This document shows, in pieces, positions 5,004 through 64,000 of a stretch of DNA of 64,000 nucleotides (within the stretch, counting starts at the first letter, position 1; the number at the start of each line of letters is the position of its first letter). The notes beneath the pieces are model-generated. The model was not told where the DNA came from and searched no databases. It saw only the letters and a list, made by a program, of their open reading frames with translations. Both the position numbers and the translations under genes were made by a program. Origin of the DNA: Flavivirga sp. 57AJ16 (GTDB taxonomy: Bacteria; Bacteroidota; Bacteroidia; Flavobacteriales; Flavobacteriaceae); the NCBI RefSeq assembly GCF_028736925.1, contig NZ_JAQZAT010000008.1:1-64000 (forward strand), in the 5' to 3' direction.

Positions 5004-5040
5004 CTCATTTTAATTGTCTTAAAAAGAGGTTATTAACAGT

Positions 5041-5073
5041 TAGTGTACATTTTTGACGACATAGTGTACACTA
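5041..5073 (+). promoter_or_regulatory. Direct repeat upstream of susC, candidate HTCS operator
   Basis: TAGTGTACA occurs at 5041-5049 and again at 5062-5070, 21 bp apart, so both lie on the same helix face about two turns apart. The second copy extends to the palindrome TAGTGTACACTA (5062-5073). AraC-type output domains of HTCS proteins typically bind direct repeats upstream of susC, so this is the natural operator candidate. Binding is inferred, not shown. Confidence 0.5.
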
Positions 5074-5158
5074 TTTGTTGTGCTCTCAATCTATATTTAT
5101 CATCAGATTTTCAAAATCAGATTTGATAACATATTAACTCACTAAACTAATTAATATC

Positions 5159-5209
5159 ATGAAAACAAGTACTCAAATTATTAATCAATTTAATTCTCTT
5201 TTATTATGA
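5159..5209 (+). CDS. Possible 16-residue leader peptide overlapping the susC start
   Basis: An ATG at 5159 opens a 16-codon frame (MKTSTQIINQFNSLLL) whose TGA at 5207-5209 overlaps the susC ATG at 5206-5208. The ATGA arrangement would allow translational coupling to susC. It could be accidental, because short frames are common in AT-rich leaders. Confidence 0.3.
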   Translation: MKTSTQIINQFNSLLL

Positions 5210-8200
5210 AAAAGCGCATTATATATAACCTATATTTTATAGGATTTATGTTATTTGGAAGTGCGTTATGTGCACAAACCGTAACGGGAATTGTAACAGA
5301 TAACAATGGCCCCATGCCTGGTGCAAATGTTATTGTAAAAGGAACATCGTTAGGAACCGCAACAGATTTTGATGGAAATTACACTATAGAAAATGTGGCT
5401 TCAAATGCTGTACTTGTTTTTAGTATGGTAGGCTATGCAACTCAAGAGGTTAGTGTTAACGGACAATCCCAAATCAATATCAAATTGACGGAAGATTTGC
5501 AGTCATTGGATGAAGTGGTGCTTGTGGGATACTCGTCAAGAAAAAAATCAACCTTAACAGGTGCGGTTTCTGTAGTGGACATGGGAGACCTTGAAAAAAC
5601 AAGGGTGGTAAATGTTACACAAGCCTTACAAGGACAAATTGCTGGTGTACAAGTAACATCCAGTACGGGTGCTCCTGGTGACCCGATTGAAGTGCGTATT
5701 CGTGGATTAGGAACTATTGGTGATAATAACCCATTATATGTAATAGATGGTATTCCAACAAGGGATATCGGGTTTTTGAATCAGGCTGATATAAAATCAA
5801 TGACCGTTTTAAAAGATGCATCTGCTGCCGCTATATACGGTTCAAGAGCTTCGGGTGGTGTAGTACTAATTACAACAAAAAGTGGAAATGAGGGGAAAAT
5901 AACTTTTGATGTAAACTATTTTACAGGACTACATTATGCCTCTAACTTACCAAATATGCTGAATGCAGAACAATACATGAATACTGTTGAAAAGGCATGG
6001 AATAATTCTGATAGAACAGGTGTAAATCCTTATACGGCAGACAAGGGAAGAGCTGATTTCTCTAATACTGATTGGCTCGATGAATTATTTGAAACAGGAA
6101 GATCCCAAAACCTGCAATTTACGGCAAGTGGAGGAAGTGATAAAATCCAATTTTTAATGTCATTAGGGTATTATGGTCAAGATGGTATGGTCATATTTGA
6201 TAATGACAAATACAAAAGATTAAGTTATAGAACCAACCTTAATGTCGATTTAACAGATCGTTTAAAAATTGGAACCAATCTTCAGTTAACTTATGCCACA
6301 CAAGATAAATTATCATCAAAGGGTGATGCGCCTGGAATTATAAGACATGCACTATTGAGACCACCAGTTATTGGGGTTTATAAGAATGTTAACGATCCTA
6401 CCTATTCTCAAAGAGATCCTTTTACAGATTTGCCTTTTTATTTGCATAATGATAGAGATAATGGCGGATGGGAAAGTGATAAATACGAATGGTCACAAAA
6501 CCCGATTGCATTGGCTTATTTTACAGATGATGTAAGAAAGGATTTTAGAACATTTGGAAACATATATGCCGAGTATTCTTTTTTAAAGGATAAAGAACTG
6601 ACTTTTAGAACTAATGTTGGTGTCGATTTATCATTTATTCACAATAAGGCATTTCGTGAAAATTTTGGTGATGATGATGGCGGTGGAAATGCTACCGACC
6701 AAGGATTGGGAAGACAAAATCGCCCCAATAATTTAAGTGAAGAACGAGGCGAAGCCCGTACCATTACGTTTAATAATACATTAAACTATGCAAAGGCTTT
6801 TAATGATAAACATGATATCAGTGCTTTGATAGGAATGGAATATATTGATAATTATAGCTCTTCAATTGGAGCGAGCAGAGCGCGTTTTGATAATACGGAT
6901 AGCACCTTTAGATATATTGATTATGGTGCAACAGAAGCCGATTTATGGAATGGAGGAAGTGCTTCAGAATGGGCATTGTTCTCTTACTTTGGTTCGGCAT
7001 CCTATGTGCTTGATAGTAAATATATGGTTACGGCCAATATGAGGGCAGATGCATCTTCAAGATTTTCAGAAAAAAACCGATGGGGTTATTTCCCTTCAAT
7101 TTCTGCTGGATGGAAAATTTCTGATGAAGCCTTTTTAAAAGATGTGAAGTGGCTATCCAATTTAAAGCTTAGAGCAGGTTGGGGTAAATTGGGAAATCAA
7201 GAGATTGACAACTATGCCTTTTTAACTTTAATTAATCAAACAGACGGAAAGGTTGTTGTAAACCGATATGGAAACGAAGATTTAAAATGGGAAAGTTCAG
7301 AATCAACCAATATAGGTGTTGATGTAGGTTTCTTAAAAAACAAATTGATTTTTTCAGCGGAATATTATGTAAAAAACACATCAGATATTCTATTGCCAAT
7401 TGGTTTGCCAAGTATTGTTGGAGATGTTTCCCCTACCATTGTAAACGCTGGAGAGGTAAGCAACAAAGGGTTTGAGTTTTCTTTAAACTATAGAGAGTCA
7501 AGCAAAGCATTCCAATACAGCATAAACGCAAACTTAGGAACTGTAGTAAACAATGTTGAGAAATTACATCCTAATGTTCCAAACCTTGTTGGAGAAGTGA
7601 CAAGAACACAAGTTGGTCAACCCCTAAATGCATATTACGGTTATAAAATGATTGGAATTTATCAAAATCAAGCTGAAATTGACAGTCATTTAAGCGGCAC
7701 CTTAAACCCTAGTGTAAAACCAGGGGATATTAAATTTGAGGATTTAAACGATGATGGCATTGTCAATTCTGATGACAGGAAATTCCTTGGAAGCTCCATA
7801 CCAGATTTAACTTATGGAATGTCGTTTTCATCATCGTATAAGAACTTTGATTTTTCTTTCCTTTTTCAAGGTGTAGAAGGCGTTGATAGATATAATGACT
7901 CGAAGAAAATATTAGACTACGATACGCGCCCATTTAATTATACAACCAACATTTTAGGTGCTTGGGACGGTGAAGGAACCAGCAACACAATTCCTCGTGT
8001 CGCTTTTGAAGATAATGGAAGCAGTAAAGTGTCAAGTATTTTTGTTGAAGATGCTTCTTACTTACGTCTTAAAAATATTGAGTTGGGATATACCATAAAT
8101 AGCGTAAAAGGAGTTCAAGACATCCGTCTTTATGTCTCTGGTCAAAATTTATTTACTGCAACCAAATATACAGGTATGGATCCTGAATCCACAGATTTAA

Positions 8201-13677: not shown

Positions 13678-15582
13678 ATGCATAAAATAAATTATACCAA
13701 TTTGAGTATAAAATGTCGTATTAAAGCCGATGTTATTTTTAAATATAAAAACGCTGTGATTAGATTGCATAGTGTTTCTACGGAATTTATGAACAAGGCT
13801 TTTAAATTTAAAAAGAACGAGTCGACATGCGACATTTTATATTCAAATTGGTATTATATGGTAATCTTGATAGTTGGATTGGTTTTTTATTCCTGTAAGA
13901 CGGAGCCATCCAAATTTATCATGGAAAATCCAATCAATCAAATACAACTGAGCCGAATTGACTCTATGCCCAATTTGCCCAGACCTTTTAAAATAATGGA
14001 TTTTAAAAATTTAACCAAAGGATTTGATTCTTTGGTTTTTGATGAGACCCAAACAGGAGACTATTGGCCATTAATATGGAAAGACGATTCGCGTAAAAAT
14101 TTCGACCAAGAAACTTTTGGAATCTTTACGGCTATGGGCGACTTAAGGCAAGGAGCTAACCATAACAACGGTATTTTTCATGAATCGCTAGCAACCATAG
14201 GGGCTGTTTTTGGAGCAACGCTCGTAGGCATAGATAAGTCAAACCAAAACGGAAAGAATTATGTTTCCATGTTGAAGAATTATTTTAATTCTGATACCAA
14301 TTGGAATATTGTGATGAATAATACGTGTCCTGAGGTAGCATTGTTGGGAGGCGGTTATGCAAGGGATTGGTGGTACGATGTATACCCAAATGTATTATTT
14401 TATGGATTAGCTAGTTTTTACCCTGAAGAAAAGGACTATTCAAAAATTATGCGTTCAGTGGCTGATAAATTTTATGAAGCAGATTCTGTTATGGCTGGGA
14501 ACTATGGATATTCCTATTTTGATTATGCAAAACTAGAGCCTAAAGATAATTGGATTTGTAAGCAACAAGATGCAGCGGCAGGTCATGCTTATGTGTTGTA
14601 TTCAGCCTATAAAAAGTTTCAAGACCCTAAATATTTACAAGGTGCCAAATCGTCTTTAGAAGCGCTTTTGGCACAAAACGACAATAGGTTTTACGAAATA
14701 TTGATGCCCTTTGGAGCTTATGTGGCGGCACGTTTAAACGCTGAAGAGGGAACTAATTATGATTATTCAAAAGCCCTTAATTGGACGTTTAATGGCACAC
14801 CAGAATGTAGAGAAGGGTGGGGTGTTTTAGTCGGAAACTGGAATGGATATGATATCTCTGGAATTGTAGGAAGTACGGTAGATCATGGTGGTTTTGGGTT
14901 TCTAATGAACACCTATGATGCTATGTGGCCCTTAGTGCCCATGGTTAGGTACGATCAAAGGTACGCCAGTGCTATTGGGAAATGGATGCTGAATGCGGGT
15001 AATGCCTTGAAATTTTTCTATCCTTATGAAATAGCCGATGAGCACCAAACCATTCCAGAACAAAAACAATACACCAAAGGTGTGATAGCTTATGAAGGAC
15101 TCATCAAAGAAGCGCATTTTGAAAAATATGAACATTTGCAAGCGCCTGTAGCTATAGGCGATGGCCCCCATTGGGTAAAAGGAAATCCAGATGTGTCGCA
15201 ATTTAGCGTTTATGGAAGCGGCCATGTGGGCATTGCAGGGGCTATTATTTCAAATACAAATGTTGAAAACATCCTTCAATTAAACTTATTGGCAACCGAT
15301 TTCTATCGGGACGATGCGTTTCCTTCTTTTTTATATTATAATCCTAATCCAGAAGCAAAAGAAGTCACAATTTCAATAGGAGAAAAGCAGTTAAAAATTT
15401 ATGATGCCATAAAAAGAGCATTTATAGCCGAAAATGTAAAAAATAATTTCACGTTTAGTCTAGCTAAAGAGCAGGCTTCGCTATTTGTGTGGGTTCCTCA
15501 AGATGCCGTTATATCTGAAAAGGACGGCAAATTATATGCAGATGATGTTATAATAGATTATAGATATTCTTCTGCAAAGTAA
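13678..15582 (+). CDS. Large PUL lipoprotein of unrecognised family, likely glycan-active
   Basis: The frame encodes up to 634 residues. The first 60 codons look poor; ATG 13858 would give a short lipoprotein signal (MVILIVGLVFYSC), while ATG 13789 gives a more basic n-region before the same segment. The lipid-attachment Cys is residue 73 of the longest form. The mature part is helix-rich with many Trp, Tyr and acidic motifs (MGDLRQGANHNNGIFHES, CPEVALLGGGYARDWWYDVYPN, CKQQDAAAGHAYVLYSA) and a beta-rich C-terminus, as in alpha/alpha-barrel glycosidases with an appended sandwich. I recognise no CAZy family. It is a candidate new enzyme of this locus. Confidence 0.75.
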   Translation: MHKINYTNLSIKCRIKADVIFKYKNAVIRLHSVSTEFMNKAFKFKKNESTCDILYSNWYYMVILIVGLVFYSCKTEPSKFIMENPINQIQLSRIDSMPNLPRPFKIMDFKNLTKGFDSLVFDETQTGDYWPLIWKDDSRKNFDQETFGIFTAMGDLRQGANHNNGIFHESLATIGAVFGATLVGIDKSNQNGKNYVSMLKNYFNSDTNWNIVMNNTCPEVALLGGGYARDWWYDVYPNVLFYGLASFYPEEKDYSKIMRSVADKFYEADSVMAGNYGYSYFDYAKLEPKDNWICKQQDAAAGHAYVLYSAYKKFQDPKYLQGAKSSLEALLAQNDNRFYEILMPFGAYVAARLNAEEGTNYDYSKALNWTFNGTPECREGWGVLVGNWNGYDISGIVGSTVDHGGFGFLMNTYDAMWPLVPMVRYDQRYASAIGKWMLNAGNALKFFYPYEIADEHQTIPEQKQYTKGVIAYEGLIKEAHFEKYEHLQAPVAIGDGPHWVKGNPDVSQFSVYGSGHVGIAGAIISNTNVENILQLNLLATDFYRDDAFPSFLYYNPNPEAKEVTISIGEKQLKIYDAIKRAFIAENVKNNFTFSLAKEQASLFVWVPQDAVISEKDGKLYADDVIIDYRYSSAK

Positions 15583-15614
15583 TATATTAAAAAATGACTG
15601 AATTATATAAAAAA

Positions 15615-18062
15615 ATGAGAACAATACTTCTAATTCAACTGTTCTGTTTCATTGGAACCATTGGATGGAGTCAAAGTATTAATCTAAAAGTAGTTGGAAA
15701 TACAGAAGCGGGTTTTTATGTGGATATTTATAACGGTGACCAATTAGTAATTCATAACACCGAAGAATTTAAACTTAAAGTCGCTAATTTGGATTTAAGT
15801 GAAACAACCGAAATCAACGATTGGAAAGGGTCGGAATGGACAGGTGATGAAACCCTTGTAAAGCTATCAAAAGAGACTTATTTATCGGATTTTGACTTGA
15901 ATTTGTCAATGACCGTAACCTATGAAGTCATAAACGCCCAGGTGGTTAAAAAGAGCATTGATTTGTTTCAATCGGGTATGCCATCGCTGTATTATACTAT
16001 TGAAGAAAATTTCAAGCCTGCCGAAATACCTATCAAATATGTCACTTTTGAGCATGATAATTTTCCAGGAGGTTTTGTCCATGAAATGTTTCCATCTGCT
16101 GGTTTTATAACACCCAATAATCAATTGATTGGTGTTTTAATGGATGCAGGATACAAAAACCATTATACACGTACAACACGTCGCAGGTTCAACGGGCATG
16201 GTGGCGGTTTTGTGGGAATGAGACAATTGCCTGATCCCGAATTGGTTTCAGTTGCTAGCTTAGAAGAAAGAGCAAAAGGACAACAGTATATCCAACAAAA
16301 ATTTGGTGAGATGTACAATCTGGATACTGGTAAAGAATTGGCATTGAAAATTAGTGATGACTTTCAAAAAGTTGGAGCTGTCGACATTAAAAAGCAATCG
16401 GGACTAATTTCACTTAATTGTAAACCATCAAGCCGTGCAGGATTTGAAATAATAGCCCCTTTTAAGGACCAAAAGACATATACCATCTCGTTTCTTTCCA
16501 AAGGGAATTCGCCCATAGCTCTTAAGCTTTTCAGAATTAAAAATGGGAAAAAAACCATTGAATTGGAAGATGGTATTAAATACATTGATCAATTTCCCAT
16601 AAAAGAAAATGAATGGACACTTTTTAAAGGAAGTATTCTAGTGCCGTATATAGAAAATGATAGTGTGTCCATGTTTTTAGGAACACAGTCAGGAAAAGAA
16701 GCAAACATACAAATTAAAGACTTGAAAATTGTTGAAAACCAGCCTCTAAAGCAGCCTTACAACAGAATGGATATGGGTAAAAAGGATACCAAAACAAGCT
16801 ATATATTTGTGGAACCTTGGACCAATCACCATGATTTTGTGGTGTCTTCCCAATCACGTCTTGCCGAAGGAAAAGGTTTTAAAGGGGCCTTGATAGAAAA
16901 AATGTTATATGCAAATTTCAACATGTTAACATGGATCACATCAATTAATGATTTTACACCTTTGAATGTTCCCAACATGAACTATGCGCCGGATATGTAT
17001 AATAGGGATTCGTTTTTTTCCATAGTTTCCAGTTATAATGAAGCCCTTAATTTAAAAATATGGGAACAATGGGCCAAAACCCAAAATGCTAATGGTGCCG
17101 TAGCAACTATTATAACGCCTTATATGGGAACTATAGAATGCAAGGATAATGAGGCTACAATTCAGTTTTTAATTTGGGCCATGATGAATAAAAGACGCTA
17201 TGGCGTTACCTTACCTAAAGATAAAATCGATAAAGCGGTAAATTATGTTTTAAACGAATTCGATGATGACCGAGATGCTATCTGTAAGTCACATTTTACA
17301 TTAAGTCAGGTTGATATTAATAAATATGAACCTAAAACCGATAAACTGGCAGTAAATCAAGGCATGTTTGCTATTGCACTAAAAACCATTAAGGAATTGG
17401 GGTATGAGATATCTGATGCATATATTGAAAAAGCAGAAGCTGCCTATCTTGATTTTTATGATGCACAAAGAAAACATGTGTTGTTTGATAGGGATTTCCC
17501 AAATGTGATTACAATGACCGATTTAGAACCAGAATTTTTCTCGTTGTGGTTGTTCAATAAACCAATGCTGACCGATGACATGGTTATCAATCATTTAGAG
17601 CAAATGCCAATATTGAATAAAGTTCCAAATTCACCGCACCCGGAATATGGTACAACCGCGCCTGTTTGTGTTCGATTGGATAAGAGTGAAAAAGGATATG
17701 CCTATTTAACCTCAGACTATCAGCCTTTCAGGGAATTTGGAGAAGCAAACTATAAAGATGGAGCAAGAGATGGCTTTTATTATAATGGTGGGAGTTGGAT
17801 GCGACCAGAATACTGTGGCTATGTAGTTGGACTTCGACATGGATGGAAAAAGGCAAAAGCACTCATGGAGAACAGAGCTTGGGCAGAAATCAATCTCAAT
17901 CCGAAATGGCCCTATAGTAAAGAATTTATTCCAACAAAATGGACCACAACAGATACTTGGTGGGAATCAACCCGAGGCCTGTGTTGGAATGTATTTATAC
18001 TCATGGCTAATGAAGTAGCAGGACTTCGTAAACCTGATATGGATCCTGATTTTAAAAAATAG
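15615..18062 (+). CDS. Secreted alpha/alpha-barrel-like protein of unrecognised family
   Basis: From ATG 15615 this 815-residue protein begins with a signal peptide cleaved near GWSQ; an ATG at 15594 would add seven residues. The first 400 residues look like beta-sandwich modules, including a carbohydrate-binding-like stretch with Lys/Thr-rich strands around residues 270-380. The C-terminal half is helical, with motifs YNRDSFFSIV, NGAVATIITPYMG, NQGMFAIALKTI, DLEPEFFSLWLFN and TWWESTRGLCWNVFILM. This layout resembles GH63/GH15-type glycosidases but I recognise no specific family. It follows the previous gene by about 30 bp, indicating one operon. Confidence 0.75.
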   Translation: MRTILLIQLFCFIGTIGWSQSINLKVVGNTEAGFYVDIYNGDQLVIHNTEEFKLKVANLDLSETTEINDWKGSEWTGDETLVKLSKETYLSDFDLNLSMTVTYEVINAQVVKKSIDLFQSGMPSLYYTIEENFKPAEIPIKYVTFEHDNFPGGFVHEMFPSAGFITPNNQLIGVLMDAGYKNHYTRTTRRRFNGHGGGFVGMRQLPDPELVSVASLEERAKGQQYIQQKFGEMYNLDTGKELALKISDDFQKVGAVDIKKQSGLISLNCKPSSRAGFEIIAPFKDQKTYTISFLSKGNSPIALKLFRIKNGKKTIELEDGIKYIDQFPIKENEWTLFKGSILVPYIENDSVSMFLGTQSGKEANIQIKDLKIVENQPLKQPYNRMDMGKKDTKTSYIFVEPWTNHHDFVVSSQSRLAEGKGFKGALIEKMLYANFNMLTWITSINDFTPLNVPNMNYAPDMYNRDSFFSIVSSYNEALNLKIWEQWAKTQNANGAVATIITPYMGTIECKDNEATIQFLIWAMMNKRRYGVTLPKDKIDKAVNYVLNEFDDDRDAICKSHFTLSQVDINKYEPKTDKLAVNQGMFAIALKTIKELGYEISDAYIEKAEAAYLDFYDAQRKHVLFDRDFPNVITMTDLEPEFFSLWLFNKPMLTDDMVINHLEQMPILNKVPNSPHPEYGTTAPVCVRLDKSEKGYAYLTSDYQPFREFGEANYKDGARDGFYYNGGSWMRPEYCGYVVGLRHGWKKAKALMENRAWAEINLNPKWPYSKEFIPTKWTTTDTWWESTRGLCWNVFILMANEVAGLRKPDMDPDFKK

Positions 18063-55789: not shown

Positions 55790-56424
55790 ATGGGCAAATA
55801 CAAATGCGTTATTTTTGACTGCGATGGTGTATTGGTAGATAGCGAAACAATAGCTGCCAGGGCTTTGGTAAATATGGCTAATGAGTTGGGAGCAAATATT
55901 AAAGAGGAAGACGCAGCGAGCCTGTTTAAAGGAAAGTCGTTTAGTTTCTGTATGGACGTAGTTTCAACCTCAATAGGAAAACCATTACCGGAAACATTTG
56001 AAGCAGATTATAGAGCGAAAAGCTTTAAGGCCTTTAAAGAAAGTATCAAGCCATTGAGGGTATTAAAACGGTATTACAACACTTGGAATTACCCTATTGT
56101 ACGGCGTCTAGCGGCCCAGAAGATAAAATCCGACTTAATTTAGAGCTTACCGGTTTATTGCCATTTTTTGGAAATAATATTTTTAGCTGTTATACTATCA
56201 AAAAGTGGAAACCAGATCCAGCCGTTTTTTTATGGGCTGCCAAAACGATGGGGTTTAAACCTAGTGAATGTTTGGTTGTTGAAGATAGTTTGACAGGTGT
56301 AAAAGCTGCCAAGCGTGGCGGCTTTGATGTTTTTGGGTTTACAGCGCATGATTATAATAATGAGTTAGAAGCTGAGGCTACTATGACGTTTGGTAGTATG
56401 TCGGAATTCTTGAAAATGATATGA
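55790..56424 (+). pseudogene. HAD-superfamily phosphatase, disrupted by a single-base frameshift
   Basis: The first part (VIFDCDGVLVDSETIAARALV, motif I) reads to about 56056; then a one-base loss moves the reading frame, and the remainder (GIKTVLQHLELPYCTASSGPE, motif II; KKWKPDPAVFLWAAKTMG, motif III; CLVVEDSLTGVKAAKRGG, motif IV) continues in the next frame to 56424. Corrected, it is a normal subfamily IA HAD of about 211 residues related to sugar-phosphate phosphatases and phosphomutases. The shift lies near CCATTGAGGG (56051-56060). It follows the OmpA gene by 11 bp. Sequencing error cannot be excluded. Confidence 0.85.
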
Positions 56425-56744
56425 TGTTTTGCAGGTTCTTTTAACAGTTTTGGCTATAAGTAGGTGAGCTGGGTTAGGGTAGATTGTCTATTGCCCGAAG
56501 CTAACAAAAGGAAACGAGAATAGGATATCGGCCCTTTTGACCGAACTTCCTTAGGACTATTATGCAGCGTTTTTACTTTATTAATTTCAATGAATTTTTT
56601 CTGTGGTATAAAATGCCAATAAAAAGTGAAAATGGTATTAAGTAAAGGAACAAACCAGTTCCAAATTCTAATCATTAAAAAATAAACTTAAAAAGATTCT
56701 GATTTTAGTTCATTGTTATTGACAACAGTTTTTTGTTAGTTCAG

Positions 56745-57038
56745 TTATAGATTTTCACTCATATCTTGTCTTCCGACTATTGCCATTGCCATTATTTCGA
56801 CAACGTTTTCATTGATTTTATAATAAATACTATAAACTCCACAAACACATCGTCTATATCCTTTTCTTATGTAATCCATTGATTCAAAGGAAAAAGGTCG
56901 TTCAGTAATAATGTCGAAATATTCAAAAAACGATTCGAAATATTTATCGGCTTGGGTCATCCCAAATTTTTAAACTCCGTAAAGGTGAATCCGAATCAAG
57001 TCATTTTTTGCTTCGTTCGTCAGTTTGTATTTAGCCAT
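56745..57038 (-). pseudogene. parE: ParE/RelE-type toxin with an in-frame nonsense codon
   Basis: From ATG 57036-57038 the frame encodes MAKYKLTNEAKNDLIRIHLYGV, then TAA (about 56970-56972), then continues in the same frame as KFGMTQADKYFESFFEYFDII ... YRRCVCGVYSIYYKINENVVEIMAMAIVGRQD. Both parts belong to one ParE toxin of about 97 residues that would poison gyrase; a single substitution made the stop (probably a Lys codon). A duplicated MAMA near the end is also unusual. The start overlaps parD. The toxin is probably inactive, unless translation restarts at the ATG after the stop. Confidence 0.85.
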
Positions 57039-57270
57039 TTTGCAAAGACTTTGCTTGAGCTAAAATACTTTCTTTACTGTCATTCGTGAATCCGCTGTTT
57101 TCAGCTTTTTCTAGTTTAGCTCGAATCCAGTTAATTTGAACTTGTTGTTTTCGGGCTTGTCTAATCAAGTCGTTGACCAACTCACTTTTGCTTGAATATT
57201 CTTTATTGTCTACTTGGGCTTTTAACCACTCATCATTCGGCTTTGTAAATGATATACTTTGTCTTGACAT
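57031..57270 (-). CDS. parD: ParD-type antitoxin
   Basis: This 79-residue protein starts at ATG 57268-57270 (MSRQSISFTKPNDEWLKAQVD); an upstream ATG at 57318 would add 16 residues that do not fit the family. The N-terminal ribbon-helix-helix (SISFTKPNDEWLKAQV ... SKSELVNDLIRQARKQ) binds DNA, and the helical C-terminus (NWIRAKLEKAENSGFTNDSKES) would cover the toxin. It overlaps parE by 8 bp, the usual translational coupling. The antitoxin is intact although its toxin is broken. Confidence 0.85.
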   Translation of the reverse strand: MSRQSISFTKPNDEWLKAQVDNKEYSSKSELVNDLIRQARKQQVQINWIRAKLEKAENSGFTNDSKESILAQAKSLQNG

Positions 57271-57378
57271 AATTTTATTTTTGGTGTAAATATGCATCAA
57301 AAAACGAATCATATCCAAATTATAGCCAAGGGTGTGGCTGTGGTGTGTATCCCGCAGGGTATGTACTATAGCCGTTGT

Positions 57379-58058
57379 GTGTGGCCAGCATGGGCATCTT
57401 TCTCTTACGTGAAAGTAGGAAATTAATTTAGAGGGTGCAAGTCCCTTATGCGCAGGGGTGTAAACCGTGAGGTTTTATCTGAAGAAAGCGAGACTACAAA
57501 ACTCGGTACTGACCCTGAGTCAAGCTCAGGACAGGCCAAGCAGAAACCGTATACAGAGGCATAATGACTCGGGTAAGCAAGCACATCATTGTAACGCCCA
57601 AAAGATTATCAAAAGGGTATTTATGTAGATACGGCAGTGATTGAGTGAATTTAGCGAAGCGTTATCATGAACTCTATAATATAAAGTAAGAATGTGTGAA
57701 TAAAGAAGATGCCATTACCTGGGGAGATCTCCAAAGTCACGAGTTGGCATAAAGGAGAAGTAACGCTAAAGACGTCATTTTCAATCAGCAGAGGTCATAG
57801 TAGTTGTTGGAAACGAGCAGATATCAAAATCAGAGGTCTCACAAGCAGCGAAGGACCGAACGTAATTCTCTTTAAAATTCGCATAGGAATGATGATTCAT
57901 AGCCTATGCTTAAACTAGAGGATAGTTTCAAGGGTGAAAAGAGCTTTGGTGTGATGATTTACGAACCGCCGTATACGAGACCCCCCCCCCCCGCACTTGA
58001 TGCGGGGGGGGGTGAGAGGCGCAGTGGCGACCGTTAGGTCGTCACCCGTCTACTCGAC
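57379..58058 (+). mobile_element. ORF-less group II intron remnant (intron 1)
   Basis: The 5' end GTGTGGCCAGC (57379) fits the GTGYG consensus; domain I features such as GAGGGTGCAAGTCCCTTATG follow. The 3' end shows GAACCGCCGTATACGAGACC and GGTGAGAGGCGCAG (domain V flanks) and a domain VI-like GGCGACCG..TCGTC stem ending CTACTCGAC at 58058. No reverse transcriptase is encoded; the small frame at 57709-57918 is not protein-like. At 680 bp it is much shorter than an intact intron. A CCTGAG-TCAAG-CTCAGG repeat lies at 57514-57530. Domain V is damaged (see 57981-58012), so splicing is unlikely. Confidence 0.75.
57981..58012. repeat. C12/G9 hairpin inside domain V of intron 1
   Basis: Twelve C, then GCACTTGATGC, then nine G: a 12-bp stem (nine G-C pairs plus GCA/TGC) with loop CTTGA. 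CCCGCACTTGATGCGGG is a dispersed repeat of the type found in Bacteroidota. It replaces the 3' strand of intron domain V. The homopolymers are also prone to assembly error. Confidence 0.75.
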
Positions 58059-58079
58059 TGTAAATAGTGCTTTTCGCAA

Positions 58080-58691
58080 TTATAATCCTCTAATGTAACA
58101 GTCAAAAAATGGTCTTTCTCTATGAATTAGGCTCAAATCATAATCAGCTCGTTGGCTTGAAAATCCGATTTTATGTTCTTTAATAGTTCCATCTTTGGAA
58201 ATATAGCTATGATTTATAATTTCCGCAATATCATCTGCAGCATAATTTTCGGGCATTTGAAAAAAATCAAATAAAAAACTCGACCCAAATCCGAATGTTT
58301 TTCCGTCATTCATTTTTACACAAAATCCTGTCCACGACATTGTAGTTTCACCACGAATTTTTCCAAGAATATCTTTTGGAAAAGCAAATGGGCTTTTTTC
58401 TATTCTATCAATATCGTATTCATTAATTGAGTTTTTTTTCGCTACAAAACTTTCTACTATATCTTCATATCCAAACCCCGAACTTTTACTGAAAATTCCT
58501 TTTCCTTTTCGCTCCTCGTCAAATCTTCTAATTGCAAGTTCAGTTAGTGGTTTTGGGTTTCTAAAACGAACACAAGGAATATAAGTTCCATCAGTCAAAT
58601 ATGCTGATGCTCGATATCCATTTCCATAAATCTGGTCATCGATTGGCTCTATATTTTCTTTTAAAAACTTAATTTTTTCTTCTAGCGTCAT
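58080..58691 (-). CDS. Hypothetical cassette protein, 203 residues
   Basis: This soluble protein has no signal peptide or membrane segment. Recognisable features are a Trp-containing central motif (ETTMSWTGFCVKMNDGKTFGFGSSFLFDFF) and a C-terminal HRERPFFDCYIRGL. I do not recognise a family. The gene occupies one cassette-like unit between spacer C (its start side) and spacer D (its end side), on the same strand as its neighbours, and no promoter is obvious. Confidence 0.7.
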   Translation of the reverse strand: MTLEEKIKFLKENIEPIDDQIYGNGYRASAYLTDGTYIPCVRFRNPKPLTELAIRRFDEERKGKGIFSKSSGFGYEDIVESFVAKKNSINEYDIDRIEKSPFAFPKDILGKIRGETTMSWTGFCVKMNDGKTFGFGSSFLFDFFQMPENYAADDIAEIINHSYISKDGTIKEHKIGFSSQRADYDLSLIHRERPFFDCYIRGL

Positions 58692-58711
58692 TTTGTTTCC
58701 GCATTAATTAC

Positions 58712-58992
58712 AACGTTTATGTATATGGAAAGTTGCATGTTTGTGAGCGAGGATTTTCCGAAGGAAAATCAGCACTAAGCAAACAAAGCAACTAACTTTG
58801 GTTAAGCACAGAATAGCAATTTTTTATATACTGTGTGGCTGTTGCACAACTATAAAACACTCTAATTCCTGCTTAATTATTTTTGTCTTCAAAACAACAA
58901 CGTGTTGATTTTAAATTAGTTATGATTTTTCGTTGTTATCAAAATTTATTACTTTATTTAAAATTATGAGTTGTGCAACGGCTACCATTGTT
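58712..58992 (-). repeat. Recombination-site-like spacer C, 281 bp
   Basis: On the minus strand it runs from AAC (58990-58992) through CAATGG, the 149-bp insertion, ATTGCTATTCTGTGC, a central hairpin GATTTTCC-TTCG-GAAAATC and CATGCAAC to ACGTT next to the 58080 gene. Its left box completes TACACACAAC at the end of the dinD unit; its right box opens GTTGTAATTAATGC. It aligns with spacers A and B in order and length. Confidence 0.7.
58836..58984. repeat. 149-bp MITE-like insertion in spacer C
   Basis: Ends TGGCTGTTGCACAACT and AGTTGTGCAACGGCTA are inverted repeats (14 of 16 positions). The interior carries a second palindromic part (ACAACAACGTGTTG, and CAAAAC...GTTGTTATC). Copies of exactly the same length occur in spacers B and A at the homologous position. 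Confidence 0.85.
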
Positions 58993-59006
58993 GTGTGTAG
59001 TGTTTT

Positions 59007-59846
59007 TTACTTAAGTTTATCTGGGTTTTTTCCAAGTTTCTTCGGTTCAGAAATCACTCTTCGCTCCAGTTTTTTAATATCTTCTTCTGCTGGTAAATCC
59101 TCTGGCTTTATGCCTCGTTTTAAAAGGATATTTCTAACACCACGATTATTTGTAATATGTTCGGCAGAAATTTGTCTTTCAGATGAAAGCCCTTTTTCTT
59201 TTGTGTTGAAGACAGTTATTTCTGTTGCAAAATCTTTGGCTTTAATTGTTATTGTCGGTAAGAAATCCGCAAGTGCTCTTCCCTTGGGAACTCCCAATTT
59301 CTTTTTCATCTGTTGGGTAGTTTTTCCAAATAAAGCCTGGTCTCCTTTACTTCTTATTAATCCAAAATTCTTATCGTTACCAGTTTGTTCGTAAATTAGT
59401 TCAGAAAGTTCTTTTTCGGATAGTGTAAGTTTTTGTCTCGCTTGAAGTCTTTCCCAGTCTTTTATCCTTTTTTCAATTTCCTCAAACTTACGTGTTTGTA
59501 TCGCGAAGTAATTTTGAGCAAAGGCTATTTGTTCTTTTCTTGGGTCTCCGTTTTGTGCTATTAAGTAACAAGCGTATCTTGTTAACATAATATCATCAAT
59601 TTCCCGCTCACTTCCTGAACCAAGTTTTACCATTTTGTTGACGTCAACAAAATGGTCTAAAATATCATTTCCAGTAGTTTCGCAAGATGTTTTTGCTTTT
59701 ACTATTACTTTCTGAAAATTCCTCCATTCTGAATAGCCTAAAAGATGCTGTATATCTCTCGCAAACCAAAATTCAATACCGTTTTCGGTAGTTTGAGAAT
59801 GGTCTTCAAAATTATTTGATAGTGATTTTATTATTTCTGATTTCAT
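59007..59846 (-). CDS. dinD: DinD-like DNA-damage-inducible protein
   Basis: This 279-residue protein matches DinD over its length: FWFARDIQHLLGYSEWRNFQKVIVKAKTSCE (BRO-N-type domain), GNDILDHFVDVNKMVKLGSGSEREIDDIMLTRYACYLIAQNGDPRK, FAQNYFAIQTRKFE, and LFGKTTQQMKKKLGVPKGRALADFLPT in the C-terminal part. In E. coli DinD is SOS-induced and inhibits RecA filaments. Its presence as a promoter-less-looking unit between two recombination-site-like spacers suggests a mobile accessory gene. Inverted boxes GTTGTGTGTA (58990-58999) and TACACACAAC (59895-59904) flank it. Confidence 0.85.
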   Translation of the reverse strand: MKSEIIKSLSNNFEDHSQTTENGIEFWFARDIQHLLGYSEWRNFQKVIVKAKTSCETTGNDILDHFVDVNKMVKLGSGSEREIDDIMLTRYACYLIAQNGDPRKEQIAFAQNYFAIQTRKFEEIEKRIKDWERLQARQKLTLSEKELSELIYEQTGNDKNFGLIRSKGDQALFGKTTQQMKKKLGVPKGRALADFLPTITIKAKDFATEITVFNTKEKGLSSERQISAEHITNNRGVRNILLKRGIKPEDLPAEEDIKKLERRVISEPKKLGKNPDKLK

Positions 59847-59901
59847 ATCGTGAAAATACTGATTTTTAATGTAATTTTAATGTTCGTTCGACATTACACA
59901 C

Positions 59902-60180
59902 AACGTGTTTGTGTATGATTTCGTTGCGTGTTTAAGCACTAAAGTTAGCAATTAAATCACAGACAGATAGTCCGCGAGGATTTTCAGAAGTAGGCGAGAA
60001 CAAGCAATTAATTATAGCCAGTGTGGCTGTTGCACAACTATAAAACACTCTAATTCCTGCTTAATTATTTTTGCCTTCAAAACAACAATTCGTTGATTTT
60101 AAATGAGTTATGATTTTTCGTTGTTATCAAAATTTATTACTTTATTTAAAATTATGAGTTGTGCAACGGCTACCGGTGTT
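59902..60180 (-). repeat. Recombination-site-like spacer B, 279 bp
   Basis: On the minus strand: AACACCGG, the 149-bp insertion, CACTGGCTATAATTAATTGC, TTCTGAAAATCCTCGCGGAC (degenerate central hairpin), CACGCAACGAAATCATA, then ACACGTT opening the dinD unit. It aligns block by block with spacers A and C. Its left box completes GTGTGCCAAC, the end box of the 60198 unit. Confidence 0.7.
60024..60172. repeat. 149-bp MITE-like insertion in spacer B
   Basis: Same terminal inverted repeats and length as the copies at 58836 and 63126; only scattered substitutions separate the three. It splits the spacer between ACCGG and CACTGG. Confidence 0.85.
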
Positions 60181-60197
60181 GGCACACGTTTTTTTAT

Positions 60198-61064
60198 TTA
60201 AATCATTGTCATATAATCTCCGTTTTTAACCATTCCTGTTAAATCTATTTTAAAGTCTTCTTTTACTCGTTTTGCAAACTCGAAAGGGTCAACATTTTTT
60301 AATATCAAAATTTCTCTTGTCAATCGAGGATAATATAAAGTTCCAAAATTACCCATAGGAAAGTGTATTCCGATTGCAGGATGAAAAGGATTGCTTGATA
60401 TTAGATAGCAATATGAAAAAGCACCAGTTTTTGCATCGCCAAAAGGAATTGGAACAGCTTGGTTAGCTTTAACAGTCATTGAGGTCGGTTGTCCAATAGA
60501 CATAGTCATTTTCATTAAGTATTCAAGTCCATTTTTAGTAGTATGTACTGTAATATGGAATCCTCCAATACTTTCAATTGCTCCACTTGAAACAACGTTT
60601 TCAAATGCTTTTGAGTGAACGTCCAGAATGTGTTTTGGTTCAGTACTTTTTAGGTTTGAAACAAAGTTTCTTTGAAAAGCATTGAACCCAAGACTATCTC
60701 CAATCCAATGATTTTGATTTGACGGATTAACTTCTCCCTTCGAGATTTTACAAAGTAAAGGTTGGTTTTCTAAAGAGCCAATCAAAAAGTCTGTCTCATA
60801 ATTAGATTCTTTGTTTATCTCAATAAGTAACTTTTTAACGTTCCCAATAGTCAGTTCTTTTAGTTTATAAATTTGTTCTATTGCTTCTTGAGCTGTGTCA
60901 ACTCCTCCAGCATATGAAACGCAAAGTCTTGGGTGTAGAATGATAGTTTTTAATAAACCAGAAAAAATACTATTTCGGTTAGATGCTATTTTCGGATTAG
61001 TAATTTTTGAATCACTATCGATTCTTAAAATTCCTTGAGTTATTCGTCCAATTACTAATGTCAT
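60198..61064 (-). CDS. Cassette protein, possible Ntn-hydrolase (proteasome-like)
   Basis: This 288-residue soluble protein begins MTLVIGRITQGILRIDSDSKIT, then LLKTIILHPRLCVSYAGGVDTAQEAIEQI. This resembles the start of proteasome/HslV-type Ntn-hydrolases: a Thr at position 2, an SDS motif and a Lys on the next strand, then a strand-AG-turn. The rest alternates strands and helices (YETDFLIGSLENQPLLCKIS). I would not assign a substrate. It is flanked by perfect inverted boxes GTTGGCACAC (60178-60187) and GTGTGCCAAC (61074-61083). Confidence 0.6.
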   Translation of the reverse strand: MTLVIGRITQGILRIDSDSKITNPKIASNRNSIFSGLLKTIILHPRLCVSYAGGVDTAQEAIEQIYKLKELTIGNVKKLLIEINKESNYETDFLIGSLENQPLLCKISKGEVNPSNQNHWIGDSLGFNAFQRNFVSNLKSTEPKHILDVHSKAFENVVSSGAIESIGGFHITVHTTKNGLEYLMKMTMSIGQPTSMTVKANQAVPIPFGDAKTGAFSYCYLISSNPFHPAIGIHFPMGNFGTLYYPRLTREILILKNVDPFEFAKRVKEDFKIDLTGMVKNGDYMTMI

Positions 61065-61091
61065 TTCTCAAATGTGTGCCAACGTCTCGGC

Positions 61092-63016
61092 GTCGAGTAG
61101 GCAAAGGGATTTTCACCCTAAGCCTCTCACAGAACCGTGCTTGAAAGTCTCCCCTCACACGGCTCTTATAATACAAATCTATGCAATTACATTTATAAAA
61201 GAATATCTCCAATGGTAAAATAGATACGGAAACTGTTCACGTACTGCTTGCAACCATTTAAAGGCTTTTCTAATACTGGTTTTGTAACGCTTATACCTTT
61301 TTCTTGCCCAACGCACTAATCGATTGCTTAAAAGTCTAAACACTTTTGTGAGTTCTGAGGCTCTAAATTTACCATAGTAATTTACCCATCCTCTTATCAT
61401 TGGATTTAGGTATTGGGCAACGCCTACAATGCTTTTAAAGCTTAAGGATTCTACTTTTAGTGTTCTTAACTTTTCTGCAATTCGTTTTCTTGAACCGATA
61501 CTTATAGCACAATCAAAGCCTAAAAAAAGACGATTGCTTTTCTTGGATGTTGTTGTTCTGGGCTGAAAGGAGTAACCCAAAAAGTCAAATTTATTTATTG
61601 GGTATTTGCCTTTCCTACGATAATCTCGGCAATAGACAATTTTTGTCTTTTGTGGATATAATTCTAATCCTACCGTTTTCATTCGTTCCCGTATAGCATT
61701 GAGTATCTGCTTTGCTTGGGCTTCGCTTTTACAATGTACTATGGCATCGTCGGCATATCGAGCATAGTGTATTGTTCTGTCTGTGTTTTCTAACCATTTA
61801 TCAAAGGCGTAATGTAGAAAAAGGTTTGCTAATAGCGGACTTATAACCCCGCCTTGTGGCGTGCCTTTTCCTTGCTTTTGGATTAGGGTATTAGACTTTG
61901 TTAAAACAGGCATTTCCAACCATCGTTTTATGTAAAGGCGTGCCCAATGCTCTGGCACGTGTTTCTCTACAGCTAGCATTAGTTTGCTATGGTCTATGTT
62001 GTCAAAGAATCCTTTGATGTCTAAATCGATTACCCAGTCTGTTTTCCAGCAGTTCTCTCTAACTTGTTTGAGCGCTTGATGCGCACTTTTGTTAGGTCTG
62101 TACCCAAAGGAATTAGGACTGAATATCTTCTCTAAACGAGGTTCTAAAAACATTTTAACCACCATTTGCCCAACCCTGTCGCTAATGGTGGGGATGCCCA
62201 ATTTACGGATGCTTCCATCTGTCTTTGAGATTTCTACTTCTTTAACAGCAGGAGGAAAATAGCTTCCTGATGCCATACGATTCCAAAGTTTGTAAAGATG
62301 TTGACTGCGATTGGCATCGAATGCTTCCATGCTAATCTGGTCAACGCCCGCACTCCCTTTGTTGGCTCTTACCTTTTTATAAGCCTGCCAAACCATTTGC
62401 CGGCTTATAGGTATTGATTTTGTTTCATTCCATAAATTCATCCTCTAAAAAAAATTGAGTTGATACATAAAATGCAACTGTATTATCTAATCCCTTCGCT
62501 CCATTTCCATTACAGAAACTTCATCACTACTACAGATTAGTCCGCCTTTGCCTATAACGTTGGTATTCCACCTCTCGATTGTTTCGATTGTGTGTTTCTC
62601 TTTGCATTTATAGGCAATTTCCCGAGTTCCATAAATAAGCCCAAATAAAGGTCATGCCATCTGAATGACGCCAGCCATACGGAAAGTAAACAGGTAACCT
62701 CCGTATTTAGTATTGTAATAATACTACTTTTCACTCCGTATCATACTTCGCAGCTTTTGACTGGGTGTTCGCAACTTCTCGACACCTCTTCAATGGTTCA
62801 CTTGCGTTCATCTCCTTTATTAATACCTTCTAATCTCGTGGATTGGATTCTCCTAAACGCTCAATACCATAACTCTTAATTACAGCACCTTTAGGTGGTT
62901 TAAAGCCATTGCCTGTACAACGACTTTGGTGGGTCGTCTTTCTAAAAAAAAGATTCCACCATCTTATTTACAGCATGCAATAGGTAATTGTTGCCGCCTA
63001 TTGCTTCTCGGCACAC
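61092..63016 (-). mobile_element. Group II intron 2 with reverse transcriptase/maturase
   Basis: Read on the minus strand, the intron starts GTGTGCCGAGAAGC (63016) and ends with domain V (GAGCCGTGTGAGGGGAGACT ... CACGGTTCTGTGAGAGG, 61123-61165) and CCTACTCGAC at 61092. The RT frame fills 62441-61179; 62442-63016 is the structured RNA of domain I and adjoining domains and shows no gene. The total of 1925 bp is normal. It lies wholly inside spacer A, 9 bp from the GTT box. It looks complete and may be splicing-competent. Confidence 0.85.
61179..62441 (-). CDS. ltrA: Group II intron reverse transcriptase/maturase
   Basis: This 420-residue intron-encoded protein has the RT palm with YADD at residues 229-232 (HYARYADDAIVHCKSE), the fingers motif GYRPNKSAHQAL, DIKGFFDNIDHS and GTPQGGVISPLLANL, and a group II maturase domain at about 340-415 (MIRGWVNYYGKF, LVRWARKRYKRYK). 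There is no HNH endonuclease domain at the C-terminus. It splices and mobilises its own intron; without the nuclease, target-primed transposition would rely on replication-fork primers or single-stranded targets such as folded recombination sites. Confidence 0.93.
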   Translation of the reverse strand: MNLWNETKSIPISRQMVWQAYKKVRANKGSAGVDQISMEAFDANRSQHLYKLWNRMASGSYFPPAVKEVEISKTDGSIRKLGIPTISDRVGQMVVKMFLEPRLEKIFSPNSFGYRPNKSAHQALKQVRENCWKTDWVIDLDIKGFFDNIDHSKLMLAVEKHVPEHWARLYIKRWLEMPVLTKSNTLIQKQGKGTPQGGVISPLLANLFLHYAFDKWLENTDRTIHYARYADDAIVHCKSEAQAKQILNAIRERMKTVGLELYPQKTKIVYCRDYRRKGKYPINKFDFLGYSFQPRTTTSKKSNRLFLGFDCAISIGSRKRIAEKLRTLKVESLSFKSIVGVAQYLNPMIRGWVNYYGKFRASELTKVFRLLSNRLVRWARKRYKRYKTSIRKAFKWLQAVREQFPYLFYHWRYSFINVIA

Positions 63017-63125
63017 TATGAGTAGTTGCGTGGGTTAGTACTTAATTTTGCAAGTACACACGGAACTGAAAATCCGCGAGGATTTTCAGAAGTGGGTGAA
63101 AACTAGCAATTACTTATAGTCATTG

Positions 63126-63274
63126 TGGCTGTTGCACAACTATAAAACACTCTAATTCCTGCTTAATTTTTTTTGCTTTCAAAACAGCAATACGCTGATT
63201 TTAAATTAGTTATAGTTATTCGTTGCTGTCAAAATTTATTACTTTATTTAAAATTATGAGTTGTGCAACGGCTA
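63126..63274. repeat. 149-bp MITE-like insertion in spacer A
   Basis: Third copy of the element with ends TGGCTGTTGCACAACT and AGTTGTGCAACGGCTA, again placed directly after the CCGG block of the spacer. Bases 63283-63399, between the spacer and the gene that follows, are AT-rich and hold nothing else. Confidence 0.85.
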
Positions 63275-63399
63275 CCGGTGTTGTAAAACGTTTTTATACA
63301 TTCTATAATTATCACCAACCAAATTTACTTTTAATTAAACGTAATATATCAAATCATAAAGCTAGCTATAATCGTTAAGATTAAAGCAGTCAAAAAAAA

Positions 63400-64000
63400 C
63401 TAAATTGGAATTGCAATACCTAAACCAGTTCTTAAACCAGACCAATTAGTTTTTACTTTGTCTCCATTATTATTTTCTAAATAAAAGTCATTATTCTCTT
63501 TAAATTTTAATGTTCCACCGAAGGTCATATCAAAACCTAAAGAAGCCTTAATAATAAAAAATGACATAGGATATTCATAAATCAATCTGCCTCCAACCCC
63601 TAAGTTAATAGATTGAAACTTTATGTTCTCATTAGTGATATTATCTGAAATTTGAGTGTAATTTTCTAATCTCAAATTTGACAACATACTAAATCCTCTA
63701 AGTCCCAAGCTAAAGTTATTATTAGTCTTGGATAGTTTAATTTGATATTCGCCTCCAAATGTATAGGCATTCAAAGGCTGAGTTATTCTTATAACTCCAG
63801 AATAATCTGAATACGATATTTTTCCTCCTGTTGAATTATAACTAAAAAATAAGGACGTATTAATTTGATTTAGTTTATAACCTAAAGTAAAACCAATATT
63901 TGACGGGAAATTATCATTAACTTCGATGGGTACTTCAGGGATATCTTCAATAAATTCTTGCTGAAAAGACTTTAAAGAAGCATGTGAAAATGTATTGTAA
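63400..64000 (-). CDS. Outer-membrane beta-barrel-like protein, partial
   Basis: The frame is open from the right edge to the stop at 63400, at least 200 residues; its N-terminus lies outside. After a short segment (FQQEFIEDIPEVPIEV) come alternating strands typical of an eight-stranded barrel: GFTLGYKLNQINTSLFFSYNS, YTFGGEYQIKLSK, FSLGLRGFSML, INLGVGGRLIYEYP, FFIIKASLGFDM, and the terminal TNWSGLRTGLGIAIPI. I do not recognise a named family. It is the outermost unit of the spacer-separated array that is visible here. Confidence 0.75.
   Translation of the reverse strand, partial: YNTFSHASLKSFQQEFIEDIPEVPIEVNDNFPSNIGFTLGYKLNQINTSLFFSYNSTGGKISYSDYSGVIRITQPLNAYTFGGEYQIKLSKTNNNFSLGLRGFSMLSNLRLENYTQISDNITNENIKFQSINLGVGGRLIYEYPMSFFIIKASLGFDMTFGGTLKFKENNDFYLENNNGDKVKTNWSGLRTGLGIAIPI

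Follow-up and report, generated by a model that had tools for sequence, protein, structure and literature searches.

A probable cassette array of an integron-type system in Flavivirga sp. 57AJ16, with a candidate integrase that lacks the IntI insertion

The window analyzed here comprises 64,000 nucleotides of the flavobacterium Flavivirga sp. 57AJ16 (contig NZ_JAQZAT010000008.1, positions 1 to 64,000) and contains, near its right end, a row of same-strand accessory genes separated by related spacers. Judged from sequence comparisons, this row is very probably the cassette array of an integron-type system of Bacteroidota whose integrase is patch-less, that is, without the insertion found in the integron integrase IntI. 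A first reading made from the letters alone (the sequence-only reading) had proposed an integron-like array with noncanonical sites, in which inverted boxes are paired within a cassette and not across a spacer, and a test of 143 units supports that proposal. The inverted end boxes that it reported, GTTGGCACAC (60178)/GTGTGCCAAC (61074), GTTGTGTGTA (58990)/TACACACAAC (59895) and TTGGCTATAA (56450)/TTATAGCCAA (57320), were confirmed at those coordinates by a sequence check of the window, and the named genes all lie on the minus strand. An imperfect pair with 12/14 identity lies near 58060 and 58700.

Matching cassette ends and the fold of the sites

The core of a window spacer, freed of a miniature inverted-repeat transposable element (MITE)-like insert, identified further copies in the genome, including one at position 81345 of contig C14 that is 87% identical to the window spacer. 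The C14 core was present in 23 of 60 genomes at E ≤ 0.001, among them all 12 genomes of the genus (own included). A covariance model (R1) with covarying stems was built on the bottom strand from 25 MITE-free sites. Sites were about 140 nt long, some about 205 nt. R1 gave 269 matches at E ≤ 0.5 across 65 sources; nine stretches of the own genome were taken, with L052–L055 left out of the analysis. Among 296 phylum-drawn genomes, 61 contained R1 matches; of these, 17 belonged to the own family (own included) and 8 to the same class, and the other 36 were more distant. Twelve stretches around the more distant matches were picked by hand from the 296-genome list, mostly multi-match contigs, and in each of them all sites lay on one strand (63 matches at E ≤ 0.05). 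At E ≤ 0.5, 41 other recombinase loci (639 kb) contained a single weak match. An ab initio search for chained units was noisy and is not used as evidence, with chains of at least three units in 21 downstream but also 15 upstream stretches (80 loci).

The two ends of a cassette resemble each other far more than chance pairing allows. The comparison covered 143 units of less than 1.5 kb, most of them from related genomes; their start and end boxes agreed at 5.60 of 6 variable positions, compared to 2.08 for shuffled partners; this corresponds to 801 of 858 matches versus 297.3 ± 16.2 (maximum 363 in 5,000 shuffles). The sequence-only reading had named similarity no higher than that of random pairing as one of two results that would overturn it, and its claim survived this comparison. 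Reduction to 97 distinct box pairs gave the same picture (533/582 matches versus 192.7 ± 12.8 shuffled), as did admission of longer distances, in which sites may have been missed (5.31/6 in 173 units). Boxes facing each other across one site agreed at only 2.25/6 (n = 195, after exclusion of 19 of 214 sites with no usable box or with a MITE present), in line with the earlier statement that boxes match within units and differ between them. The sites used were R1 matches mostly at E ≤ 0.01, excluding opposite-strand cross-matches, the L146 and L131 matches and weaker ones; L047:4893 (E 0.33) was added. In these units, GTT at the head is followed by A or G (one C), by any base but A and by any base but T, and some 10 bases of the head match the tail. 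The boxes do not strictly fit RYYYAAC/GTTRRRY, as had been noted from the letters: among 143 of each kind, only 10 R' boxes and 12 R'' boxes do. A search with the canonical attC consensus gave only 0–2 candidates per IntI locus, hence IntI arrays provided no positive control for the box rule. The within-unit match is as would be expected if the site of a cassette circle pairs its own ends and insertion juxtaposes the head of another cassette.

The 25 aligned sites share a consensus fold, in which an R helix is separated by an unpaired spacer (5 nt on one side, 2 nt on the other) from an uninterrupted 12-bp L helix (columns 19–30 with 122–133). They thus display the R''/R' and L''/L' pairing with an unpaired central spacer that characterizes attC sites. 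In the stems, 98.1% of cells are paired and eight pairs show two-sided changes, four of them in the L helix; the covariation score is 0.152, compared to 0.072 ± 0.007 when shuffled (0/500) and 0.014–0.048 when the pairing is slid. Three G·T pairs, two in the L helix and one at the R helix, are invariant in all 25 sites, and their top-strand counterparts would be A·C mismatches. The bottom strand was the more stable one in 25 of 25 aligned sites with RNA parameters. DNA parameters gave this result for 20 of 23 training sites and for 161 of the 175 others, and for 41 of 165 control segments inside cassettes. None of the 25 aligned sites shows an extrahelical base in its L stem. In canonical attC sites, strand choice is set by extrahelical bases, according to the available part of PMC2727003.

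The site of a free circle was predicted to fold better than the array form in 128 of 131 cassettes, by a mean of 5.6 kcal/mol, in a set from which 28 of 165 cassettes had been dropped for duplicate tails or an own R'' with fewer than 7/9 matches (a selection that favors the result) and six more for an identical next head. We infer that this greater stability would favor capture over loss.

Integrase, entry point and cassette mobility

The window array has no adjoining integrase gene. A 375-aa tyrosine recombinase is encoded on contig C14, 1.3 kb upstream of the site at 81345; no other integrase of this clade was found in the genome. A tyrosine recombinase of the kind sought by the sequence-only reading exists in the genome, on C14 and not beside the window array, and its position near an 87%-identical site agrees with the suggestion that such an enzyme is the agent; the C14 recombinase is the probable catalyst. 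Among 39 named integrase loci (L136–L174), 12 had R1 matches at E ≤ 0.5, and all 42 matches in these loci were downstream of and codirectional with the integrase gene (one opposite-strand match overlapping a site was set aside). Examples are Winogradskyella ursingii, Seonamhaeicola aphaedonensis, Algibacter onchidii, Flavobacterium enshiense, Rufibacter and Algoriphagus ornithinivorans. The codirectional layout is also shared by the integrase surroundings of 10 of 11 genomes (G000, G006, G007, G009, G010, G011, G017, G025, G028 and G034). A Persicobacter plasmid (CP012862) encodes an integrase 43.6% identical, with one R1 match downstream.

Alignments separate these proteins from IntI. The six catalytic residues are invariant in 12 of 12 aligned integrases. 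The spacing from the catalytic Arg to the His is 89–90 residues in 19 of 20 array integrases and 94 in one, compared to 131 in 14 of 14 IntI and 94–96 in three Xer proteins, and the 42-residue IntI insertion (patch, I2) appears to be missing from the array integrases. When the C14 protein was compared to VchIntIA (2A3V), residues 14–201 and 247–317 of the latter were aligned and 202–246 skipped; against TIGR02249, it scored 205.7 bits (cut-off 265) with positions 180–243 unmatched. No protein of this genome scored above the TIGR02249 cut-off. A tree of 80 proteins places the 20 array integrases on a branch with 99/87 support, outside the IntI clade (eight proteins, 100/100) and apart from Xer (100/100). 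The best PDB match of the C14 protein was 4a8e, 'probable tyrosine recombinase XerC-like' (150.9 bits). XerA, XerC and XerD belong by sequence to the same protein family, but the array integrases differ from them in their separate branch, in an N-terminal extension of about 100 residues in most and in their linkage to cassette arrays. From these comparisons, we conclude that the C14 recombinase is not an IntI.

The head (R') of a first cassette was predicted from its tail (R'') and sought behind the integrase gene. The predicted head was located 48–417 bp past the integrase stop codon in 15 of 15 loci tried, with 7/7 positions matching in 10 and 6/7 in 5. The head in G007, 417 bp away, is doubtful, and a 4/7 alternative at the conserved place was used for that locus in the inverted-repeat test. 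In 8 of 15 loci, a perfect inverted repeat of 8–12 bp, ending 3–7 bp before the GTT, stands upstream of the entry point; arms of 8 bp also occurred in shuffled sequence, whereas arms of at least 9 bp never did in 150 shuffles. The GTT head next to the integrase is taken as the putative attI.

In the mechanism that we propose, a cassette consists of one open reading frame (ORF) or small module followed by a site that would fold on the bottom strand into an R stem, an unpaired spacer, a 12-bp L stem and a variable end. A tyrosine recombinase that has no IntI insertion would exchange this folded single-stranded site with the double-stranded attI-like site adjoining its own gene, inserting the cassette circle at the GTT, and cassettes would leave as circles through exchange between two sites. 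Pairing of the two ends would be nearly perfect in the free circle. Once inserted, a site would take its R' box from the next cassette, which would account for the mismatch between facing boxes.

Cassettes were delimited by GTT heads, giving 165, of which 11 had no ORF of at least 60 aa. In 150 of the other 154, the longest ORF runs with the site. The median cassette measures 871 bp, with the ORF starting 28 bp past the head and leaving a tail of 134.5 bp. From genome G025, two arrays of 44 and 43 cassettes were cut out. One cassette of about 558 bp occurs ten times over these arrays, which are about 0.5 Mb apart, and eight others have two or three copies each, in one case as a tandem pair. 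Identity between repeats is 0.95–1.0 at both inner ends and mostly 0.25–0.6 in the 40 bases past the next GTT; the exception is one pair with the same following cassette. In a side inspection of G025 cassettes (L116–L118), 4 of 10 tested proteins had no Pfam match, and the others matched CrtO, PLDc_2, alpha/beta hydrolase and short-chain dehydrogenase or, weakly, Imm49 and RHS repeat.

The borders of the window island are genes that we take to encode a HAD-type hydrolase and a SprT-like protein, names assigned from our own reading. Counted from the gene that precedes the hydrolase up to the SprT-like gene, the interval measures 15.4 kb here compared to 0.75–0.95 kb in three sister species (G001, G009 and G006), in which the island is absent from this locus; it measures 2.2–11.8 kb in the other eight genomes of the genus. 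R1 matches at the island locus were found in 2 of 11 other genomes of the genus, one of them weak. The unit-level gain or loss for which the sequence-only reading proposed to compare strains is seen as duplicated units in G025 and as presence or absence of the whole island, and in nothing beyond these. The hydrolase gene at the border (55790–56424) is split into two overlapping frames in this genome.

Parts of the window array

On the minus strand, which is the cassette orientation, a unit starts with GTTNNNNNN and ends with the inverse of those letters, and the common form of a spacer is R''-ACA-L''-loop-L'-AAAC-R'. The features are collected in Table 1. Further units follow to the right, where the sequence-only reading had proposed to look for them, and the array extends past the window up to about 69–70 kb of the contig. 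The cargo within the window comprises dinD, a ParDE pair and two ORFs that matched nothing in Pfam or NCBIfam. The three spacers of 277–281 bp listed by the sequence-only reading were found, but each proved to be a composite of a site of about 143 nt and a MITE-like insert of about 150 nt.

Table 1. Features of the window array and further copies of the MITE-like element (positions in the window unless a contig is given)
Position	Strand	Feature	Basis
56450..57331	-	Terminal cassette; ParE-like toxin 56745-56960, ParD-like antitoxin 57031-57318	Boxes TTATAGCCAA/TTGGCTATAA; PF05016 and PF03693 barely above cut-offs (Pfam)
57320..57371	-	Short (~51 bp) attC-like spacer	Inverted arms GGCTATAGTACATACCC / GGGATACACACCACAGCC, by eye; no R1 match at E ≤ 0.5
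57372..58061	+ (opposite to cassettes)	Group II intron remnant at R'' box, no long ORF	Rfam RF02001 at 57461-57662; ends by eye
58062..58714	-	Cassette with unknown 203-aa ORF (58080-58691)	Boxes; no Pfam/NCBIfam match
58703..58845	-	attC-like site S1	R1 match, 126.4 bits, E 1.6e-24
58836..58986	-	MITE-like insert in S1	8 genome copies, same R''-like/L''-like flanks
58990..59904	-	Cassette with dinD (DNA damage-inducible protein D, 59007-59846)	NF008573, 366.7 bits (cut-off 242)
59893..60033	-	attC-like site S2, then MITE copy 60024-60174	By eye; weak R1 match, 21.6 bits, E 0.33 in one search and 0.0079 in another
60178..61083	-	Cassette with unknown 288-aa ORF (60198-61064)	Boxes GTTGGCACAC/GTGTGCCAAC; no Pfam/NCBIfam match
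61084..63017	-	Group II intron just before R' GTT; reverse transcriptase/maturase 61179-62441	RF00029, RF01999; RVT_1, GIIM; ends by eye
63018..63281	-	Remainder of attC-like site S3 and MITE copy 63126-63276	By eye; weak R1 match, 17.0 bits, E 0.083
63282..64000	-	End of next cassette, ORF 63400 onward, reaching ~66.1 kb of contig	Boxes GTTGTAAAACAT/ACGTTTTACAAC, 6/6
C51:66214, C9:100216, C5:125271, C5:126439, C49:157774		Other MITE-like copies	Genome search

The MITE-like insert occupies an identical position in three window spacers, between R'' and L''. It has inverted ends of about 17 bp, and all eight of its genome copies lie in one orientation between an R''-like box and an L''-like flank. 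R1 supports a site beside seven of the eight; that at C5:125271 (L247) was recognized by eye only. The element seems to target attC-like sites. Similar inserts were seen in G012.

Group II introns also occupy the sites, that of S3 lying between L' and R' and the remnant in the short spacer at the R'' box. Introns at R boxes in the cassette direction, just before R', were observed in S3 and on C14, the latter (C14:81456 onward) recognized by eye only. The opposite-strand remnant at R'' resembles in its placement the IIC-attC introns described in the available part of PMC7923331.

Alternative explanations and significance

Beyond the assignment of the window, we consider it somewhat probable that these loci represent a second integron class, one that arose in Bacteroidota separately from IntI or earlier than it and in which an I2-less recombinase acts on folded single strands, G·T pairs replace extrahelical bases for strand choice and private, full-length boxes make the free circle the better substrate, favoring capture over loss. 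If the recombinase is correctly identified but acts on double-stranded sites, the hairpins would be a by-product or terminators. The perfect inverted repeat with 8–12-bp arms at the attI-like point in 8 of 15 loci is what a double-stranded core site would be expected to show; such a mode of action would leave unexplained the box match within cassettes, the two-sided L-stem changes and the G·T pairs that favor one strand, and we regard it as unlikely.

Less likely still, and in our view quite improbable, is a remnant of a canonical integron, a cluster of attC sites lacking integron integrases (CALIN), with cassettes moved by an ordinary IntI since lost or located elsewhere. The island has the anatomy of an integron and resembles a CALIN in containing sites and cassettes with no integrase beside them. 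Bacteroidota are listed among integron-bearing phyla in the available parts of two reviews (PMC8618304, PMC9668308), and TIGR02249 scored above its cut-off in 84 of 296 phylum-drawn genomes. Against this, the sites depart from the canonical attC boxes that define a CALIN, GTTRRRY being as rare among R' boxes as noted above, this genome has no protein above the TIGR02249 cut-off and R1 gave no match at E ≤ 1 in 100 kb around five IntI genes. The distributions also diverge: TIGR02249 at E ≤ 1e-60 was found in 85 genomes, of which 84 were of the same phylum, 1 of the same class and 0 of the same order or family, whereas a same-sized draw gave R1 sites in 17 genomes of the own family (own included). 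That passive palindromic repeats or elements bounded by terminal inverted repeats came between genes by chance is scarcely credible: the MITE-like insert in three window spacers speaks for it, but it explains neither the single orientation nor the linkage to attI and integrase, and the boxes are not transposon ends because they are private to each unit.

Several observations weigh against an integron-type system with a patch-less integrase. R1 matches occur in IntI-bearing genomes, since 16 of the 36 phylum-level genomes with matches also match TIGR02249; a true IntI may therefore play a role in those genomes, and our confidence is slightly lowered. The C14 protein passes the cut-off of NF040815 ('site-specific tyrosine recombinase/integron integrase') with 241.4 bits against 220, and the array-integrase branch contains 40 further proteins, mostly of Bacteroidota, with no site seen. 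No site was found at 27 of the 39 named loci (19 with less than 2 kb downstream and 8 with more than that), and three array labels (L145, L150 and L154) depend on best E-values of 0.05–0.13. In the 12 hand-picked distant stretches, an integrase-like ORF was present in only three: L260 with short spacing, L266 with three ORFs and another spacing, and L263 with a fragment. The patch-less integrases of G012 (on C13, short) and L260 (G112:C4, 280 aa) are divergent from their arrays; this layout of short integrases (272–280 aa) is that of canonical integrons. The 25 training sites of R1 came from a search by sequence alone, the model was built on the bottom strand, such that its matches may favor bottom-strand folding, and the sites share descent. 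The three tyrosine recombinase ORFs of L266 (G254) lie at 787–1701, 5033–5926 and 14861–15667, on the strand opposite to the cassettes.

Compared to the sedentary chromosomal integrons (IntI/attI/attC), the system described here shares unidirectional single-ORF cassettes, folded sites with R and L boxes, bottom-strand bias, a tyrosine recombinase with an entry site next to it, cassettes whose own ends pair and group II introns in the sites. It appears to act like an integron, yet departs from IntI integrons in four features compared, having no IntI insertion, a place outside the IntI clade, its own box rule and no extrahelical base in the L stem (25 sites). Further differences are an integrase codirectional with the array in most loci seen and the attI palindrome beside 8 of 15 integrases.

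The covered parts of the open-licence literature (subscription papers and preprints being outside this scope) contain no description of this system, and PMC8352920 makes no mention of Bacteroid-. In the available part of PMC2426708, an integron survey chose integrases by the IntI additional domain; for Bacteroidetes proper, that of PMC9024848 (IntegronFinder 2.0) reports a single complete integron, from Salinibacter ruber, and earlier finds of In0 elements only. Such filters could miss a system whose boxes differ and whose integrase has no IntI domain, yet G025 holds two arrays of more than 40 cassettes each. Gain of the I2 helix is described, in the available part of PMC7790495, as the step from double- to single-strand recombination in integron integrases, and a family that seems to recombine single strands without I2 makes this view directly testable. 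In this flavobacterium and many relatives, the enzyme that apparently moves the cassettes is without the domain described as essential for integron enzymes, and the arrays give access to a large reservoir of unknown mobile genes from environmental Bacteroidota.

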